This document shows, piece by piece, positions 6,108 through 63,426 of a stretch of 64,000 bases of DNA. This stretch comes from Thermoplasma acidophilum DSM 1728 (lineage in GTDB: Archaea; Thermoplasmatota; Thermoplasmata; Thermoplasmatales; Thermoplasmataceae): the NCBI RefSeq assembly GCF_000195915.1, contig NC_002578.1:1483644-1547643 (forward strand). Reading direction: 5' to 3'. The position numbers and the translations under genes were made by a program. How positions within the stretch are numbered: position 1 is the stretch's first letter; the number at the start of each line of letters is the position of its first letter. The notes beneath the pieces were generated by a model. It saw only the letters and a list, made by a program, of their open reading frames with translations. It had not been told where the DNA came from and made no database searches.

Positions 6108-6788
6108 TCACCCAAGTATTTTCAGCCTGTACACGGATGGCTCGACGGCAGAGTATACGCTGATGGATCTTTCTAAATCCGATCGCAGCGTTGTGAGCCT
6201 GTGCCTGTATATGCCTATTATCCTCTTCATCGTTTTCTCATCATAGTAATTGCTTTTCCGGGATATTATCTCTGCAGATACTTCTGGATTTCTGGCTATG
6301 AATTCTATGCCCTTCTGGTATTGATCTAGAACCGATCTGAATGACTGATCACGGGCAGCTATTAAACAGGAAGCTGCATATATCCCGAGGCGTTCAGCAA
6401 ATTCCGCATAGCTTATACCAACCTGCACCTCATTCCCGACGAGGCCCATATGGCCCTCTTCTGCCATTTTAACCACGGTGTCGGGATCGGTGTTTATGAC
6501 CTGCCCGGATATCGATCTGGCTATGATCCTGGCATTGTAGTCGGCCAGCGTGCCCTTTCTCACTGTGTATATAGTCTTCGAATCGGTATTCCCTATTATG
6601 GAATACATGTCGATGAAGACCCCTGCAATGATCCCCATGCCGTATTTAGCGATGTTGGTTATCGAATCCAGGACGACGTCAAAACTGCCATCTTCCGAAC
6701 ATGTATTGTGAAGGCCTATATCCTCGTATTCTGATATCACCAGAAGCGGAAATGATACAGGTCCAGCAAATGGTGCACCGATTTTCAT
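6108..6788 (-). CDS. Uncharacterised protein, resembles DUF3834 / binding-protein fold
   Basis: A 226-residue protein from the ATG at 6788. The sequence from MKIGAPFAGPVSFPLLV onward resembles a small substrate-binding-protein-like family (I recall DUF3834, restricted to Thermoplasmata and relatives), with no signal peptide or membrane segment visible. The ATG at 6788 is chosen because a TTTATAAATA box lies 27 bp upstream, which fits a leaderless transcript; the frame remains open to 6881. It ends within the ribosome-binding site of map. No enzyme motif could be identified; the family name is from memory and a role in amine or ligand sensing is only a guess. Confidence 0.7.
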   Translation of the reverse strand: MKIGAPFAGPVSFPLLVISEYEDIGLHNTCSEDGSFDVVLDSITNIAKYGMGIIAGVFIDMYSIIGNTDSKTIYTVRKGTLADYNARIIARSISGQVINTDPDTVVKMAEEGHMGLVGNEVQVGISYAEFAERLGIYAASCLIAARDQSFRSVLDQYQKGIEFIARNPEVSAEIISRKSNYYDEKTMKRIIGIYRHRLTTLRSDLERSISVYSAVEPSVYRLKILG

Positions 6789-6809
6789 ATGGCAGTCAAT
6801 TGCAATATC

Positions 6810-6822
6810 ATTTATAAATAAG
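6810..6822 (-). promoter_or_regulatory. TATA box of the DUF3834-like/map operon
   Basis: TTTATAAATA on either strand, centred about 27 bp from the ATG at 6788; spacing predicts a leaderless or nearly leaderless mRNA and decides the start choice. Confidence 0.55.
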
Positions 6823-7044
6823 TTACATGCTTTGTGTATCCAGCATTTGGCGTAACATCTGCGTTTCTGCGGGCTGCGCATCTGTGATTAGCATTCATGC
6901 ATGCAATTGCAGCGAAAACGCTGGATCATCAATGTTCTGCTACGGACCAGTGACATCTCAATAAATATGTTCACTGGAGAAGCCCTTTTATCACATCACT
7001 AAAGCATTTGAGTTTTCCGGCTTCCCCAACCCCACAACTTTGCC

Positions 7045-7058
7045 ATAAATATAAATAC
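7045..7058 (+). promoter_or_regulatory. TATA box of the PAC2/ubiquitin-like operon
   Basis: ATAAATATAAATAC, 22 bp before the ATG at 7073 and 28 bp before the ATG at 7079. Consistent with a leaderless mRNA from one of these two starts. Confidence 0.55.
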
Positions 7059-7072
7059 AGATATTGCCTAAA

Positions 7073-7822
7073 ATGATCATGGTCAACAAAAAGGCTTCAG
7101 AGAGCCAGGTAATGGAACTTGAGAAGCGCAACTACAATAACCCCGTTGTTCTGTGCGGGTTTGCAGGATCAACTCCAACCGGTGTCCTTGCAGCGAGTTA
7201 CATAGTTGAAACACTCGGAATGCACCAGGTTGCGCACCTGATATCGCAGCACATTCCGCCAGTGGCCGTATTTGTTGGCGGAAAACTGAGGCATCCATTC
7301 AGGATCTACGCTAACAATTCAAACACCGTTCTGGTTGCCATGTGCGAGGTGCCCATATCCAGCGCACATATTTATGAGATATCGAATACACTCATGAACT
7401 GGATAGACCAGGTTGGTGCAAGCGAAATCGTCATAATGGAGGGTAGCCCAGCAAATGGCATCCCCGAGGAAAGGCCTGTCTTTGCCGTTGCTGAAAAGCC
7501 AAAGCTGGACAAGTTCAAGAAGGCCGGCATACAGCCCGCTGATTCGGCCATCATTGCGGGAATGGGCGGTGGCATACTAAACGAATGCCTTGTGAGAAAG
7601 ATAACGGGCCTCTCCTTCATAACGCCGACATCGGTCGATATACCTGACCCGGGCGCAGTATTGTCGATCATCGAGGCAATCAACAAGGCGTACAATCTGA
7701 AGATAAAGACCGATCTACTCGAGGAGCAGGTAAAGGCGCTTGACGAACAGATAAAGAAGATAGAGGAGCAGTACAAGGAGCTTCAGGAAAAGCAGAAGGA
7801 ACCTCAGTCCATGTATGGATGA
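7073..7822 (+). CDS. PAC2-family proteasome-assembly-chaperone-like protein with HbYX-type tail
   Basis: A 249-residue protein of the PAC2 superfamily (archaeal PbaA/PbaB type). The core, about residues 20-205, has the GFAGSTPTGVLAA and SPANGIPEERPV segments typical of the family. It is followed by a coiled coil at about 205-243 rich in Leu, Glu and Lys. The last three residues are Met-Tyr-Gly, which fits the hydrophobic-Tyr-any (HbYX) rule used by proteasome activators such as PAN and archaeal PbaA to dock onto the 20S alpha ring. Thermoplasma is known to have a 20S proteasome but no PAN, so this protein is a candidate activator or adaptor. The gene adjoins a ubiquitin-like gene. The start may be 7073 or 7079; both fit the TATA box. 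Confidence 0.8.
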   Translation: MIMVNKKASESQVMELEKRNYNNPVVLCGFAGSTPTGVLAASYIVETLGMHQVAHLISQHIPPVAVFVGGKLRHPFRIYANNSNTVLVAMCEVPISSAHIYEISNTLMNWIDQVGASEIVIMEGSPANGIPEERPVFAVAEKPKLDKFKKAGIQPADSAIIAGMGGGILNECLVRKITGLSFITPTSVDIPDPGAVLSIIEAINKAYNLKIKTDLLEEQVKALDEQIKKIEEQYKELQEKQKEPQSMYG

Positions 7823-7827
7823 TCGCC

Positions 7828-8022
7828 ATGATCAAGGTAAGAGGCCACATCAGAAAGGAGCTAACGATAGAATCAGAAAGAAAGGTATCCGATCTGATGA
7901 AAGATCTTGGCCTGAACGAGGATGAATACGTGGTCATAGTTAACGGATCTCCCGTTCTGGGAGACCACATTGTGAAGAAAGAAGACGACGTCACCATACT
8001 CGAGGTTTTCTCTGGGGGATGA
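7828..8022 (+). CDS. Ubiquitin-like small archaeal modifier / MoaD-ThiS family protein
   Basis: A 64-residue beta-grasp protein ending in Gly-Gly (VFSGG), the tail that E1-like enzymes adenylate in MoaD, ThiS and the archaeal SAMP/Urm1 modifiers. The body (LTIESERKVSDLMKDLGL, then EYVVIVNGSPV, then VTILEVFSGG) follows the beta-grasp pattern. A start at 7819 overlaps the upstream stop (ATGA), but the ATG at 7828 has TGATC placed 3 bases ahead and fits better. It could serve in sulfur transfer for tRNA thiolation or molybdopterin, or as a protein modifier. Pairing with a proteasome-related gene favours a link with protein degradation, but this is an inference. A molybdopterin synthase large subunit (moaE) is 41 kb away, with no moaD beside it. 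Confidence 0.82.
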   Translation: MIKVRGHIRKELTIESERKVSDLMKDLGLNEDEYVVIVNGSPVLGDHIVKKEDDVTILEVFSGG

Positions 8023-8130: not shown

Positions 8131-8805
8131 TTATCCGAAGAATTTCGAAAGTTCAATTTTCACCTTTAATATTCTTGATCCTTCTATTCTTTCCACATAT
8201 CCGCGAGCTTCAAGCACTTTCAAAATGGATGATCCGAGGAATCCGCCTAAATGAAACCTCTTTACAGTCCAGTCCTTGCAACCATAAGCGAACATTCTCT
8301 TGCCATTAGCCCTTGGAGGTAAAGAGACACCCCTCACTGTTAGTTCCTCAGCACCTGCAGTGGTAAGCCTATACGTAGGCTTCTCTGGATCGTCCAAAAT
8401 AATCCATTTTCTTTTCAGCAATTCTTCAAGAAGGTATACTCCCATCTCACCTGCAAGGTGATCGTAACAGGTACGGGCATAATTTAAATCATTTACCGGA
8501 GATAGGCCGTAGTTTGCTGATCCGCCTGAGCTTTTTGAATGCAAAATGGAATCAAGCCAATCAACCATGTCCTCAAATTTTTCTGGTGCTATCCTGTAAA
8601 TTTTCTCTCTTCCCATCTGAATGGAATCCACAAGCCTAGCTTCAGAAAGAATTGCCAGATTTGAGGACACCTTTGGCTGATCTGCCTGTGTTTGCATTGT
8701 TATCTCGTTCACAGAAGATGGTTTTTTAGCAATTATTTCTATTATTTTCCGTCTTAGTGGACTTGAAATGGCCTTCGCAAACCGAGTCTTTTCTATTTCG
8801 TCCAT
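8131..8805 (-). CDS. ArsR-family transcriptional regulator
   Basis: A 224-residue protein with an N-terminal winged helix of ArsR type (about residues 10-85: ISSPLRRKIIEIIAK, then DQPKVSSNLAILSEARLV) followed by a C-terminal domain with the RTCYDHLAGEMG signature seen in many two-domain ArsR regulators. The Cys and His of that motif may sense metal or redox state. It is divergently transcribed from a flavin-reductase-like gene across a 77-base gap with two CATATATG sites, so it likely regulates itself and that neighbour. Its position and the closeness of an oxidoreductase hint at a redox or metal stress role; the ligand is unknown. Confidence 0.85.
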   Translation of the reverse strand: MDEIEKTRFAKAISSPLRRKIIEIIAKKPSSVNEITMQTQADQPKVSSNLAILSEARLVDSIQMGREKIYRIAPEKFEDMVDWLDSILHSKSSGGSANYGLSPVNDLNYARTCYDHLAGEMGVYLLEELLKRKWIILDDPEKPTYRLTTAGAEELTVRGVSLPPRANGKRMFAYGCKDWTVKRFHLGGFLGSSILKVLEARGYVERIEGSRILKVKIELSKFFG

Positions 8806-8824
8806 TTTTGGTGAACGGCGCTAA

Positions 8825-8848
8825 CATATATGATTTTTCGCATATATG
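8825..8848. promoter_or_regulatory. Paired CATATATG sites in the ArsR/flavin reductase intergenic region
   Basis: Two identical self-complementary octamers at 8825-8832 and 8841-8848, spaced 16 bp centre to centre. This gives dyad symmetry with helical phasing near 1.5 turns. They may act as ArsR binding sites, or as the TATA elements of the two divergent genes, or as both. Confidence 0.5.
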
Positions 8849-8882
8849 GCAAGGATTATTACGGCCACAAGAATGGACAAAT

Positions 8883-9527
8883 ATGGAAAATAATACGAAC
8901 CAAGAAAACTCTGATGCATTGGAAAATGTATCGTTTGCATGCATCAGACCGGAAATCCTTTATTTCGGTACCCCAGTAGTTCTTATATCGACAATAGATA
9001 GAGAAGGGAAGGTTAACCTCGCACCCATATCTTCCGCCTGGGCCCTAGGATATTCTGTCGTTATGGGAATCGGTACAGAGAGCAAGACAATGGAAAATCT
9101 TAGAGAAACTGGAGAATGCACACTGAATTTTCCAGAGGGGGCTCTCTGGGAGTCCGTAGAAAGACTTGCCCCACTCACTGGAAAATACCCTGTCCCCCAA
9201 GATAAAGCGGATAAATTCAGATTTGAAAGCAATAAATTCGGTGTGGCAGGTCTCACACCCTGTGATTCTGAAGTCGTCAAACCTCCAAGAGTCCTTGAAT
9301 GTAGGTTGCAGATGGAGGCCTGCGTCAAAAGCGTACGCCGTATTTCAGAACCAGATGTACAGGCAGGCATAGTAGAGGTAAAAGTTGTTCGGGTACATGC
9401 AAGGAACGACCTGATCATCGATGGCAAATACATTGATCCAAAGCAATGGAAACCGTTGATTTACTCGTTCCGCCACTATTTTACGCTGGGCTGCGATCTT
9501 GGAAAGACCTTTCGCTCAAAAATTTAG
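8883..9527 (+). CDS. Flavin reductase-like FMN-binding domain protein
   Basis: A 214-residue protein starting at the ATG at 8883. It has the split-barrel flavin reductase pattern: VLISTIDREGKVNLAPISSAW near residues 25-45, then a typical FMN-phosphate binding strand, an ECTLNFP segment, and a conserved EVKVVRVHARNDL strand. Such proteins bind FMN and either transfer hydride from NAD(P)H or act as flavin-dependent oxidoreductases. It faces the ArsR regulator across a short shared promoter and is followed, 40 bases downstream, by a Rossmann-fold gene on the same strand that may be in the same transcript. A longer open frame upstream to 8757 overlaps the divergent gene and is unlikely. Confidence 0.82.
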   Translation: MENNTNQENSDALENVSFACIRPEILYFGTPVVLISTIDREGKVNLAPISSAWALGYSVVMGIGTESKTMENLRETGECTLNFPEGALWESVERLAPLTGKYPVPQDKADKFRFESNKFGVAGLTPCDSEVVKPPRVLECRLQMEACVKSVRRISEPDVQAGIVEVKVVRVHARNDLIIDGKYIDPKQWKPLIYSFRHYFTLGCDLGKTFRSKI

Positions 9528-9567
9528 GAAACCCATAAATATGGATGGGGAATAGAAATTGAAATAT

Positions 9568-10149
9568 ATGCGCATTTTTATCGCAGGTGCCACCGGAATA
9601 ATCGGGATGAAACTCTTGCCGTTACTCCTGGCAGGCGGATACTTCGTTGCCGGAATGACCAGATCGCCTGAAAAGGTCAGAATATTGGAAAATGTGGGAG
9701 CAAAGCCGATACTATGTGACGTCTACGATCCCGAAGACCTCGAAGCTTCGATAGTGAGCTTCGATCCAGATATCATCATTAGCCTGTTGACAGATTTGCC
9801 TGACCATGCCAGATATGTGAGGGATTATTCGGAAAGAAATAACCGGATGAGAACAGAAGGTGTAAGGAATTTGTTAAGTGCCGCAAGGGCAGCGGATTCG
9901 CCCAAACTGATCGTGGAGAGTGTGGCCTGGACTCTTGAAAGAGAAAGTGCCGAAGCAGTTGATATCATGGAGAAGATGGTGTGGGAATACGGTGGTATAG
10001 TGATAAGATATGGAAGGCTGTATGGTCCGGGTACATACTACCAGAATGATCTGCCTGCCAAGCCACGCATACATGTGGACAGGGCGGCGATCCTAACTGC
10101 AGAAAGTATATTGTCTGAGGAAAAAATAATAGTAATTGCGGACGAGTAA
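9568..10149 (+). CDS. Short NAD(P)-binding Rossmann protein, epimerase-like
   Basis: A 193-residue protein with an N-terminal dinucleotide-binding motif (FIAGATGIIGMKLL) as in extended short-chain dehydrogenases and NAD-dependent epimerases. It includes a DVYDPEDLE segment and a later IVIRYGRLYGPGTYY segment that matches the YGP motif after the catalytic helix. The catalytic Tyr-x3-Lys is not seen and the usual C-terminal substrate domain is truncated, since homologues are about 300 residues. It may therefore bind nucleotide without canonical chemistry. Start: the ATG at 9568 gives the normal family N-terminus; a TTG at 9559 is also possible. It probably follows the flavin reductase gene in one transcript. 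Confidence 0.7.
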   Translation: MRIFIAGATGIIGMKLLPLLLAGGYFVAGMTRSPEKVRILENVGAKPILCDVYDPEDLEASIVSFDPDIIISLLTDLPDHARYVRDYSERNNRMRTEGVRNLLSAARAADSPKLIVESVAWTLERESAEAVDIMEKMVWEYGGIVIRYGRLYGPGTYYQNDLPAKPRIHVDRAAILTAESILSEEKIIVIADE

Positions 10150-10273: not shown

Positions 10274-11569
10274 CTATTTTCTGAATACATCTGCACCGAA
10301 GAATTTATCGAGTACTGGCAAAGATTTCATGCCGACATTGAATTTCATTATCTCCATTGACTTTTTAAAACGATCCAGGTTCTTTCCTATGGAATAGTTG
10401 AAAATTTCCTGCCTGACTATATCCTCTATGCTCCGCTGCCCGGTGAATACGTCCACATACAGCCTGTCAGCCACAATATAAGGCCCGCGCGATCTGTCCC
10501 TTGCCTTCCAGCTGTTGACAAAGTCTACTGCATTATCCGTATCCACCGGAGGGCCAGTGTGAACCCGTATTCTTTCCTCGGCGCATGCTGGTGTTTCAAT
10601 CAACACATATATTCTGTCGCTTACGTCAATTTCTGAGGATATGACACGAATTTCATGGGATTCCATTATCTTCTGCAGGACGGATCTGAAACGGTACACC
10701 TGAGGATAGATAACGTCGTCCGTAAGATCTGGCTTCGGCAGCGAGTATATCATGATACAGGTACCCCTATCATGATACTGCACGTTCTTTCCATTGTGTT
10801 CGATCTGGAAAAAACCCTCGTCTGGCGATGACAGGAACATTTTGCTTGCAATCTTCATTCTGGAAAGGCTTTCAAGGCTCACCGGCGATGCAACGTTTCT
10901 GTCAGGATCCACGGGATCTATTAGCACCATCGGATCACGGAAGCGTTCATCAAGGTCTATGAGAACTCTCCCCTTGGCCTTTGAAAAGTACCTTATGACG
11001 TTTTCAAAGCTTCCGAACCTGATCACCAGAAGCTCGCACAGGTATCCGGAAAAACCAAATGTCCTGGCCTCAGCTCCGTATACCCCTATTGATTTTGTGA
11101 ATATCTTCAGAAGCCTGACTTCATCCCTGCCCTTTTCGTCTAGATGCCCATTCACGTATTCTGTATGAAGCAGCGTCCTGTCAACTGCGCTTATCTTTTT
11201 GTCGCCGAAGCTCATCTTGTAGCAGGGAACAACATCGATCTTCACACCGCCAATCTCGCCGCTGACATAGGGATGCTCCGCGTATTTCTCCCTTCCATTG
11301 GGGATCACGGCGTGACCTATGTGAAGCCCCTCCGTATTGATTATTTCCTCGGGATAATCGCGATCAAATGCTATGAATATATCCAGATCCCCGTCCCTGA
11401 GATTAGTGCCCTTTGCATATGATCCTACTATAACGGCTTCGGCCCTGAGTCCTCTTGATCTGCAGATGCTGTTTATCTTTCGGATAATATCATCTGATAT
11501 GATCTTCAGCTTATTTTCTTCTTCCTGCGTTGGCCTGTATCTGCTGAGTACTTCCTGATAATCTATCAT
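10274..11569 (-). CDS. cca: CCA-adding tRNA nucleotidyltransferase, archaeal class I
   Basis: A 431-residue enzyme that adds or repairs the 3' CCA of tRNAs. The polymerase signature GSYAKGTNLRDGDLDIF, with the two catalytic Asp, sits near residues 48-65, followed by a third Asp in GGVKIDVVPCYK. Total length fits archaeal class I enzymes (about 430-450). None of the three tRNA genes in this window encodes CCA, so this activity is required. The start overlaps the stop of the NAC gene by 4 bases (ATGA), showing an operon that couples tRNA maturation to nascent-chain handling. Confidence 0.96.
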   Translation of the reverse strand: MIDYQEVLSRYRPTQEEENKLKIISDDIIRKINSICRSRGLRAEAVIVGSYAKGTNLRDGDLDIFIAFDRDYPEEIINTEGLHIGHAVIPNGREKYAEHPYVSGEIGGVKIDVVPCYKMSFGDKKISAVDRTLLHTEYVNGHLDEKGRDEVRLLKIFTKSIGVYGAEARTFGFSGYLCELLVIRFGSFENVIRYFSKAKGRVLIDLDERFRDPMVLIDPVDPDRNVASPVSLESLSRMKIASKMFLSSPDEGFFQIEHNGKNVQYHDRGTCIMIYSLPKPDLTDDVIYPQVYRFRSVLQKIMESHEIRVISSEIDVSDRIYVLIETPACAEERIRVHTGPPVDTDNAVDFVNSWKARDRSRGPYIVADRLYVDVFTGQRSIEDIVRQEIFNYSIGKNLDRFKKSMEIMKFNVGMKSLPVLDKFFGADVFRK

Positions 11570-11925
11570 TTCTGCATCAGGTTCATTATGGCCTGAGCAG
11601 GCTCTCCGCCAGACGCTTTCAGAGCCTCTATCGCCTTCTCCCTGGAAACGCTCGCCTGTTCCATAACAAGCTTTATGTCATCCTCTGGGAAGGACTCTTC
11701 CTTCTTCTCTTCGGGCTCCTTGGGGACTTCCCTCATTGTACCGACAACCTGAAAGGTCTTCACGCCCTGTGCTTCGATCATCGTAACCTGGGCGTTGTCG
11801 ATAACGTAATCCTTCGTCTTTCCCTTGAATATAACCTTCGTAACATCGTCCATCTCTGTGGACTTTATGCCCATCTGCGCCATCAGCCGGCGCATCTCCC
11901 TTGAGTTCATCCTGCCAGGTATCAT
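11566..11925 (-). CDS. nac: Nascent polypeptide-associated complex protein (archaeal NAC)
   Basis: A ribosome-associated chaperone subunit of 119 residues from the ATG at 11925. The N-terminus (MIPGRMNSREMRRLMAQMG) is typical of archaeal NAC alpha. The NAC beta-barrel core follows (KVIFKGKTKDYVIDNAQVT), then an acidic linker, and a C-terminal UBA domain (DDIKLVMEQASVSREKAIEAL). The start at 11940 is open too, but 11925 begins exactly at the family N-terminus. The gene leads the NAC-cca operon, with an ATATAT box about 40 bp upstream on the minus strand. Confidence 0.93.
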   Translation of the reverse strand: MIPGRMNSREMRRLMAQMGIKSTEMDDVTKVIFKGKTKDYVIDNAQVTMIEAQGVKTFQVVGTMREVPKEPEEKKEESFPEDDIKLVMEQASVSREKAIEALKASGGEPAQAIMNLMQK

Positions 11926-12036
11926 TTTAGCACTGATCATTAAATCGTAAATAAAGTTGAGTTTTTATTGTGCAAAAATATATCAAAAGCCATGAGTACG
12001 AATGAACAGATATATAAAATAAAATGGATTTGATAT

Positions 12037-61656: not shown

Positions 61657-63426
61657 ATGCATGTAGCTGTTCTCGATCGGGACAAGTGCCACCCGAAAAA
61701 ATGCCATCATGAGTGCCAGTATTATTGCCCACCTGTCAGAAACCATGTAATGGCCATAGATTTTCCCGACCCGGATGGGCAGCCACTGATATCAGAAACG
61801 CTCTGCATAGGCTGTGGCATATGCATCAGGCGATGCCCGTTCGGTGCCATAAAGATCGTAACGCTTCCTGATGAATTGAACAAGGAGGTCCTGCACAGAT
61901 ACGGTGTTAATGGCTTCAGAATATATTCTATCCCAACCATTTCACCTGGCAGGGTATCCGCAATACTCGGGCAGAATGGCCTTGGAAAGACCACGACGCT
62001 CAACATACTTTCAGGCATAACCGTACCGAATCTGGGATCATACGAGAGGCCGCCATCAAAGGAAGAGGTCATTGAGAAATTCGCAAGAACCGAGATGGGA
62101 GCCTATTTCAGGGGGCTTTACGAGCAGAATAAGAGAGCGGTGCTGAAAAACCAGTACGTGGATTATATTCCCAAGGTGGTTAAGGGCACAATAGGGGAAG
62201 TGCTGAAAAAGAACGATGAGACAGGAAGGTACAGCGATGTCGTAACGCAGCTCAACCTGGAAAATTCTGTCAACAAGAATGTATCTGAATGCTCTGGCGG
62301 CGAGCTCCAGCGGCTGGCAATAGGGACGGTGCTTGAAAAAGACGCAGACATATACTTATTCGATGAGATGACCTCATACCTCGATATAAATGAGAGGCTC
62401 AATGCATCAAGGATAGTGCAGGATCTGGCCAGGAAGAAGACGGTAATAGTGGTGGAACACGATCTGGCCATACTCGACTGGCTGGCGGATTCCGTCAATA
62501 TAGTGTATGGAGATCCGGGCGTCTACGGTATATTCTCTGAACCACTCTCAACTAACAGGGCGATAAATGCATACCTTTCAGGGTTTCTGAAGGAGGAAAA
62601 TGTGCGCATAAGGAGCTATCCGATAGAGTTCGAGGAAAAGACCTCCAGGAGGGACAAATTCACGCAGGATCTCATCTCATGGACCGAACTGAAGAAGACG
62701 CTAGGCGATTTCGCCTTGGAGGTCTCGCCCGGAAAGATACACAGGAGCGAGATCGTGGGCATACTTGGTAAGAATGCACTTGGAAAGAGCACATTTATAA
62801 TGATGCTTGCCGGCGTTCTCAATCCAGATTCCGGATCGATATCGCAGAACGTAAGGGTATCCTACAAGCCGCAGTACATATCGACATCCTTTGACGGATC
62901 TGTATCAGATCTCATAAGAACCTCGCTAGGTGAACGATCGGATGATTCATTCGTCAAGAATGAGATCTTCCACCCACTCAGCATAGAGGATATAATGGAG
63001 AATCCTGTTGATGGCCTTTCTGGGGGCGAGCTCCAGAGGCTTTCCATTGCCATAACGCTGGCAAGGGACGCTGACATATACCTGCTTGATGAACCATCAG
63101 CGCACCTTGATTCCTCATTCAGAATGGTGGTTGCCAAGGTCATAAGGAGAGTCATGGAGAACACGAAGAAGACCGCCATGGTCGTCGATCATGATATCTA
63201 CCTAATAGACCTCATATCCGACAGCCTGATAGTTTTCTCCGGTGTACCAGGGTCCCACGGGCATTCCGAAGGCCCCATGGACATGCGTGAAGGCATGAAC
63301 AGGTTCCTCAAGATCGTCGGTGTAACCTTCAGGAGGGATCAGAACTCGAGGAGACCCAGGATAAACAAGGAGAACAGCAGCCTGGACAGAATGCAGAAGG
63401 AACAGAACAATTATTATTATTCGTGA
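61657..63426 (+). CDS. ABCE1 (Rli1) ribosome recycling ATPase
   Basis: A 589-residue protein. The N-terminal Fe-S domain has CHPKKCHHECQYYCP and CIGCGICIRRCP for two [4Fe-4S] clusters. NBD1 has a Walker A motif ILGQNGLGKTTTLN and the signature SGGELQRLA; the hinge and NBD2 follow, with GKNALGKST and SGGELQRLS. Walker B motifs are LFDEMTSYLD and LLDEPSAHLD. It splits terminated archaeal ribosomes with aRF1/aPelota. The gene sits between an acidic small protein and tgtA, with gaps of 9 and 3 bases. Confidence 0.97.
   Translation: MHVAVLDRDKCHPKKCHHECQYYCPPVRNHVMAIDFPDPDGQPLISETLCIGCGICIRRCPFGAIKIVTLPDELNKEVLHRYGVNGFRIYSIPTISPGRVSAILGQNGLGKTTTLNILSGITVPNLGSYERPPSKEEVIEKFARTEMGAYFRGLYEQNKRAVLKNQYVDYIPKVVKGTIGEVLKKNDETGRYSDVVTQLNLENSVNKNVSECSGGELQRLAIGTVLEKDADIYLFDEMTSYLDINERLNASRIVQDLARKKTVIVVEHDLAILDWLADSVNIVYGDPGVYGIFSEPLSTNRAINAYLSGFLKEENVRIRSYPIEFEEKTSRRDKFTQDLISWTELKKTLGDFALEVSPGKIHRSEIVGILGKNALGKSTFIMMLAGVLNPDSGSISQNVRVSYKPQYISTSFDGSVSDLIRTSLGERSDDSFVKNEIFHPLSIEDIMENPVDGLSGGELQRLSIAITLARDADIYLLDEPSAHLDSSFRMVVAKVIRRVMENTKKTAMVVDHDIYLIDLISDSLIVFSGVPGSHGHSEGPMDMREGMNRFLKIVGVTFRRDQNSRRPRINKENSSLDRMQKEQNNYYYS

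Follow-up and report, generated by a model that had tools for sequence, protein, structure and literature searches.

The PAC2-family gene Ta1441 of Thermoplasma acidophilum and the ubiquitin-like (Ubl) gene that follows it are, on balance, probably best regarded as a PbaA-type two-gene unit, in which Ta1441 would dock on the 20S proteasome conditionally, the Ubl would serve as a sulfur carrier, and a promoter would couple the expression of both proteins. The unit was analyzed within a 64,000-nucleotide stretch of the T. acidophilum DSM 1728 genome, positions 1,483,644 to 1,547,643 (hereafter, the window), and the features concerned are collected in Table 1. The gene pair itself and the hydrophobic-Tyr-X (HbYX) tail of Ta1441 had both been published already, and the first-pass annotation that pointed to them was correct but not new. 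New here are the selection on the tail, the placement of Ta1441 with PbaA, the tail rule of the PbaB type, the assignment of the Ubl, and the distribution of the pair in a single genus.

Table 1. Features of the Ta1441-Ubl region and related T. acidophilum genes (window positions, except for the PbaB orthologue)
Feature	Position	Strand	Remarks
TATA-box-like element ATAAATATAAATA	7045..7057	+	candidate promoter of the two-gene unit, putative function
PAC2-family gene, PbaA type, Ta1441	7073..7822	+	249 aa; Pfam PAC2 (PF09754) 5.3e-38
C-terminal helix of Ta1441, residues ~215-243	7715..7801	+	from alignment and column entropies; fast-changing linker after it
HbYX tail codons, Met-Tyr-Gly	7811..7819	+	read from sequence; C-terminus of Ta1441
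SAMP2/ThiS-type Ubl gene	7828..8022	+	64 aa with the conserved start, 67 aa with the ATG at 7819
C-terminal Gly-Gly codons of Ubl	8014..8019	+	read from sequence; protein ends Ser-Gly-Gly
CCA tRNA nucleotidyltransferase	10274..11569	-	TIGR03671 2.6e-141; Ubl neighbor across the family, outside the operon
Nascent polypeptide-associated complex (NAC) protein with UBA domain	11566..11940	-	TIGR00264 9.9e-34; Pfam NAC, UBA_HYPK
PbaB orthologue of T. acidophilum	C1:1271769-1272521	-	2.4e-45 to 3VR0; TIGR00162 237 bits, cutoff 200

The junction between the two genes is compact. The Ubl start had been proposed to lie within or just after the PAC2 stop codon, and only the second of these positions stood: the second ATG, at 7828, is common to four Thermoplasma species and lies 5 nt past the PAC2 stop, or 4 nt past it in G075, whereas the ATG at 7819, which overlaps that stop, is probably not the Ubl start and was rejected because in G075 a stop codon follows it after three codons. 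In three species, a GGATAAATATAAATATC-like stretch was found at an equal distance upstream of PAC2, with CTATAAATACG in the fourth; in this four-species comparison, a TATA-like element occurred upstream of PAC2 only. The element in the window is likely to be the promoter of the two-gene unit, and the PAC2 mRNA is probably leaderless or nearly so. The gap of 4-5 nt in four species, together with a TATA-like element upstream of PAC2 only, argues that PAC2 and Ubl are very probably carried on one transcript.

The surroundings of the pair point in the same direction. The gene downstream of Ubl in the window is convergent, three genes separate Ubl from the CCA gene in the window and one other gene does so in G043, and G075 has a different upstream flank, with the CCA-transferase gene directly after Ubl. 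Change on both flanks has left the PAC2-Ubl junction intact, a pattern in keeping with an operon. In the window, genes for an ArsR-type regulator, a flavin reductase and an NAD-epimerase-like protein (8131-10149) occupy the interval from Ubl to the CCA gene; they are absent from that place in G075 and G133, and in G043 a single, different insertion is found. On the other side, a DUF3834 protein (6108-6881, 220 bits) is encoded beside a type II methionine aminopeptidase; three Thermoplasma genomes have its gene in divergent orientation to PAC2, and G075 does not.

Among the loci that were examined, the pair occurs in the genus Thermoplasma only. PAC2 lay beside Ubl in 4 of 85 SAMP2-type Ubl loci in the class Thermoplasmata, all of them in Thermoplasma genomes, and a fifth Thermoplasma assembly (L162) carried the pair too; a recurrent linkage of docking factor and tag was thus not found across these 85 loci, and none of the PAC2 loci examined outside Thermoplasma, within the class, had an adjoining Ubl gene. 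Where sister genera possess an orthologue of Ta1441 (G067, G103, G128, G138 and G143), the PAC2 and Ubl genes lie apart. Half of the family genomes (9/18) lack the PbaA type but possess Ubl, and the job of the PbaA type is for this reason dispensable. A scan of the genome collection with Ta1441 as the single protein gave matches on two Thermoplasma contigs only. The more stable neighbors of Ubl are of another kind: through most of the family, Ubl faces the genes for the CCA tRNA nucleotidyltransferase and the NAC protein in convergent orientation, and this CCA-NAC pair lies 2.25 kb downstream of Ubl in the window and directly adjacent to it in G075 and G133. The UBA-domain NAC protein and the Ubl, as long-term neighbors, may deserve attention in their own right. 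The neighbors of PAC2 vary among sister genera, and the simplest history suggested by these gene orders would place the arrival of PAC2 upstream of Ubl in the ancestor of Thermoplasma.

Whether that arrangement has any functional meaning is a separate matter. The proposal that PAC2 landed by chance upstream of Ubl, an ancestral neighbor of the CCA and NAC genes, and that the junction persists since Ubl needs the PAC2 promoter, is in our estimate about evenly balanced between right and wrong. It agrees with the retention of the Ubl-CCA-NAC order without PAC2 in sister genera, with the continued proximity of CCA-NAC to Ubl in Thermoplasma, and with the differing PAC2 neighbors just described; chance placement alone, however, leaves the retention of a proteasome-linked partner unexplained. 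As it concerns the pairing, this proposal is compatible with a docking role for Ta1441.

Ta1441 itself is a protein of known structure. The PAC2 protein of the window is 100% identical to PDB entry 3GAA, which contains five chains, and Kumoi et al. (2013; PMC3605417) noted that Ta1441 carries an HbYX motif, crystallizes as a homopentamer and keeps its C-terminal helix in contact with the core; its fold, pentamer and HbYX motif are already published (structure 3GAA; PMC3605417, 2013). What the first-pass annotation had called a coiled coil is the C-terminal helix, which in 3GAA packs onto the core (PMC3605417). A domain search of Ta1441 did not find a Ubl-binding domain.

One HbYX tail alone is weak evidence: about 0.93% of archaeal proteins carry such an end (PMC11475706), and composition predicts 1.8% here. 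A penultimate Tyr was present in 2 of the 65 open reading frames of the window, namely in Ta1441 and in an ABCE1/RLI-like protein. The latter, encoded at 61657-63426, ends Tyr-Tyr-Ser and is HbYX-like at chance level; RLI is among the Urm1 targets in Sulfolobus (PMC4569737). For Ta1441, we found that the penultimate column of 23 divergent orthologues within the order held 22 Tyr and a single Phe (entropy, 0.26 bits), and the mean entropy of the 31 columns preceding the tail was 1.56 bits, with single linker columns reaching 2.9. Y248 was present in at least 90% of the rows of the Ta1441 alignment. Across the class, PbaA-type tails were hydrophobic-Tyr-X in 52 of 59 cases and hydrophobic-Phe-X in the other 7. 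A chance origin of the Ta1441 tail was rejected, since the Tyr is kept beside a fast-changing linker. These data indicate, at the level of sequence, that selection acts on the Met-Tyr-Gly tail, and this is a new result. The claim that Ta1441 ends in a hydrophobic-Tyr-X tail was thus upheld and extended to a conserved feature, and it survived the search for homologues without the tail. The pocket that receives HbYX has been mapped on the archaeal T20S (PMC10349882).

The identity of the PAC2 type matters for what such a tail may do. When compared with solved structures other than 3GAA, Ta1441 matched PbaA best (2.5e-22), with PbaB at 3.4e-11. A tree of 53 proteins split a PbaA side, comprising P. 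furiosus PbaA (which sits on a long branch) and Ta1441, from a PbaB side with support of 100/99. NCBIfam TIGR00161 was the top model for Ta1441, yet the score stayed under its cutoff (122.5 of 199 bits), and Ta1441 is therefore a divergent member of the PbaA type. The reading of Ta1441 as a PbaB-type activator was rejected by the tree, and the PbaB orthologue is another T. acidophilum gene, located downstream of L44e-, S27e-, aIF2alpha- and Nop10-like genes (named by eye), whose product ends Gly-Tyr-Phe-Gly. PbaB-type tails in the class had Tyr third from last in all 80 of 80 cases and typically read DLGY[IF]G. Judged by these terminal residues, strict HbYX appears to be kept in the class Thermoplasmata by the PbaA type only, and not by the PbaB type. 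The opposite tail rules (HbYX for the PbaA type, GY[IF]G for the PbaB type) constitute a testable difference, of which no earlier report was found in the literature searched.

Work on other archaea shows that the two types behave differently. P. furiosus PbaB binds and activates the 20S via HbYX, whereas PbaA, despite its HbYX, does not bind the mature 20S (PMC3605417) and builds with PF0014 a 10:10 cage, the tholos complex (PMC6992696). Methanococcus maripaludis PbaA is reported to bind 20S precursors by means of its HbYX motif (reported in PMC3605417). The idea that Ta1441 is an activator did not hold against these findings, in that Ta1441 groups with PbaA in the tree, P. furiosus PbaA lacks binding to the mature 20S, and the demonstrated activator is PbaB, a separate gene in T. 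acidophilum. The tail of Ta1441 may serve a non-proteasome purpose, because P. furiosus PbaA, with HbYX present, builds the PF0014 cage without binding the mature 20S. We nevertheless think it unlikely that Ta1441 has no proteasome role at all and instead assembles into a ring or cage together with some other partner, with a tail used for self-packing or partner contact: the Pyrococcus tholos complex is a precedent for such a ring, but 59 of 59 class tails are hydrophobic-Y/F-X at the very end, which self-packing would not obviously need, and the M. maripaludis protein does contact 20S precursors through HbYX. A conditional HbYX-dependent contact of Ta1441 with the 20S or its precursors is plausible and, we infer, its best-supported role.

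The adjacent gene was confirmed to encode a beta-grasp protein ending in Gly-Gly, as the first-pass annotation had it, by domain matches (Pfam SAMP2 4.9e-18 and ThiS 4.9e-7; NCBIfam PRK06437 6.2e-39), by its Ser-Gly-Gly end and by a fold model. This end was kept in 30 of 30 Ubl homologues of the class, two of which carry a short extension beyond it. The single-sequence AlphaFold model of the 64-aa protein (pLDDT 80) was closest to TtuB (with TtuA), SAMP2 (with JAMM1) and ThiS at TM scores of 0.63-0.73, with E-values that are weak for so short a protein. In the T. acidophilum genome, no protein other than this Ubl matched the SAMP2 family, and the two remaining Ubls are MoaD-type. The genome also contains one ThiF/MoeB-type E1 and an NcsA/TtuA-like PP-loop protein, as well as a JAB/JAMM-like gene with a weak match (Pfam Prok-JAB at 1.1e-8; NCBIfam desampylase under its cutoff). 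About 2.1 kb separate the sole E1-like (ThiF/MoeB) gene from that for VAT (Cdc48) (L092:2895-8082). A literature search under the presumed tag Ta1442 gave no match for the Ubl. Haloferax depends on SAMP2 for tRNA thiolation and also attaches it to NcsA (PMC4048286), and Thermococcus Ubls are both sulfur carriers and protein modifiers (PMC11323500). By analogy, sulfur carriage first and protein modification second is the best inference for the role of this Ubl.

The first-pass annotation had drawn a closer connection, in which the absence of PAN left room for a tagging-and-docking module. According to the literature, a PAN gene is absent from T. acidophilum. The implied gap does not exist, however, as the Cdc48 homologue VAT already serves the T. 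acidophilum 20S; VAT ends Leu-Tyr-Leu and is an ATP-dependent activator of this proteasome (cited in PMC3605417). The module, in which the Ubl would be conjugated to substrates or to Ta1441, and Ta1441 would dock the tagged material and open the 20S gate, was not borne out by the synteny scan of the class, and we regard it as improbable. An HbYX tail and a Gly-Gly Ubl do share an apparent operon kept despite changed flanks, E1 and JAMM-like genes are present in the genome, and in Sulfolobus, PAC2, PAN and 20S beta were all found to carry Urm1 (PMC4569737). Yet the pairing is limited to one genus within the class, nine family genomes keep Ubl without PbaA while sister genera have both genes apart, Pyrococcus PbaA does not bind the mature 20S, Ta1441 has no detected Ubl-binding domain, and an HbYX cap is already supplied by VAT.

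Contact with the Ubl, covalent or not, might instead free the packed helix of the Ta1441 pentamer and convert it to a state that binds the 20S or its precursors. The packed tail of 3GAA, the proposal that the partner PF0014 frees the PbaA tail (PMC3605417), the likely co-expression and the Urm1 conjugates on Sulfolobus PAC2 (PMC4569737) are consistent with such regulation, but the same tail occurs in orthologues that have no neighboring Ubl, and we likewise give this reading little credence. Slightly less probable still is a swap of PAC2 paralogue roles in Thermoplasma, with Ta1441 as an ATP-independent 20S docking factor and Ubl-gated cap whose packed tail is freed by the co-expressed SAMP2-type protein, while the PbaB tail, with one extra residue past Tyr, has moved off strict HbYX.

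Our preferred reading, PbaA-type docking beside a sulfur-carrier Ubl, may be summarized as follows. A two-gene transcription unit of the genus Thermoplasma would couple PAC2 and Ubl expression through a shared promoter. Ta1441 would form a PbaA-type pentameric ring, with HbYX tails selected for conditional docking in the pockets between neighboring subunits of the 20S alpha ring, or in those of an assembly intermediate. At rest, the tail would be packed on the core and would need to be released; with its tail so packed, Ta1441 would most likely be an assembly/quality-control chaperone or a conditional cap, and not a constitutive activator. The Ubl would be charged by E1 as a sulfur carrier for tRNA 2-thiolation with an NcsA/TtuA-like enzyme, and would probably also be a protein modifier, as SAMP2 is in Haloferax. 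Direct cooperation of Ta1441 and the Ubl, physical or enzymatic, is possible. No archaeal proteasome is better studied than the T. acidophilum 20S, and a structure of Ta1441 exists, so that the docking question is simple to test. Forouzan reportedly performed a pull-down study of the T. acidophilum 20S in 2012. An answer on Ta1441 docking would help to settle the function of archaeal PAC2 proteins, and a real link to the Ubl, if true, would bear on how Ubl tagging became tied to the proteasome.

Several known systems resemble parts of this unit. Makarova and Koonin (2010, PMC2948915) described the same gene pair, a ThiS-family gene associated with PAC2 in two Thermoplasma genomes; their main text lists the association only, and the tail, subtype, distribution and ancestral neighborhood are absent from their analysis. 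The Urm1-proteasome pathway of Sulfolobus acidocaldarius is similar in that a Ubl is tied to the proteasome and conjugated to PAC2, but it differs in its distinct Urm1 family and gene neighborhood. P. furiosus PbaA (PF0015, PDB 3WZ2/5Y9N) shares with Ta1441 the PAC2 fold, homopentamer, HbYX-like tail and packed C-terminal helix; it differs in sequence (21% identity), in its partner PF0014 and in its lack of mature 20S binding, and no neighboring Ubl gene has been reported for it in the literature searched. P. furiosus PbaB (PF1142, PDB 3VR0) likewise has the PAC2 fold and an HbYX tail, Gly-Tyr-Leu, which docks on and activates the 20S, but unlike the pentameric Ta1441 it is a homotetramer with protruding tails. 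For the Ubl, the closest counterparts are Haloferax SAMP2, P. furiosus PF1061 and Thermus TtuB, beta-grasp proteins of about 65 aa with a C-terminal Gly-Gly and of the same Pfam family. In the class, SAMP2-type genes adjoin PAC2 in Thermoplasma only, and the partner genes of the SAMP2/TtuB systems (E1, NcsA/TtuA-like and JAMM-like) are also present in the T. acidophilum genome.
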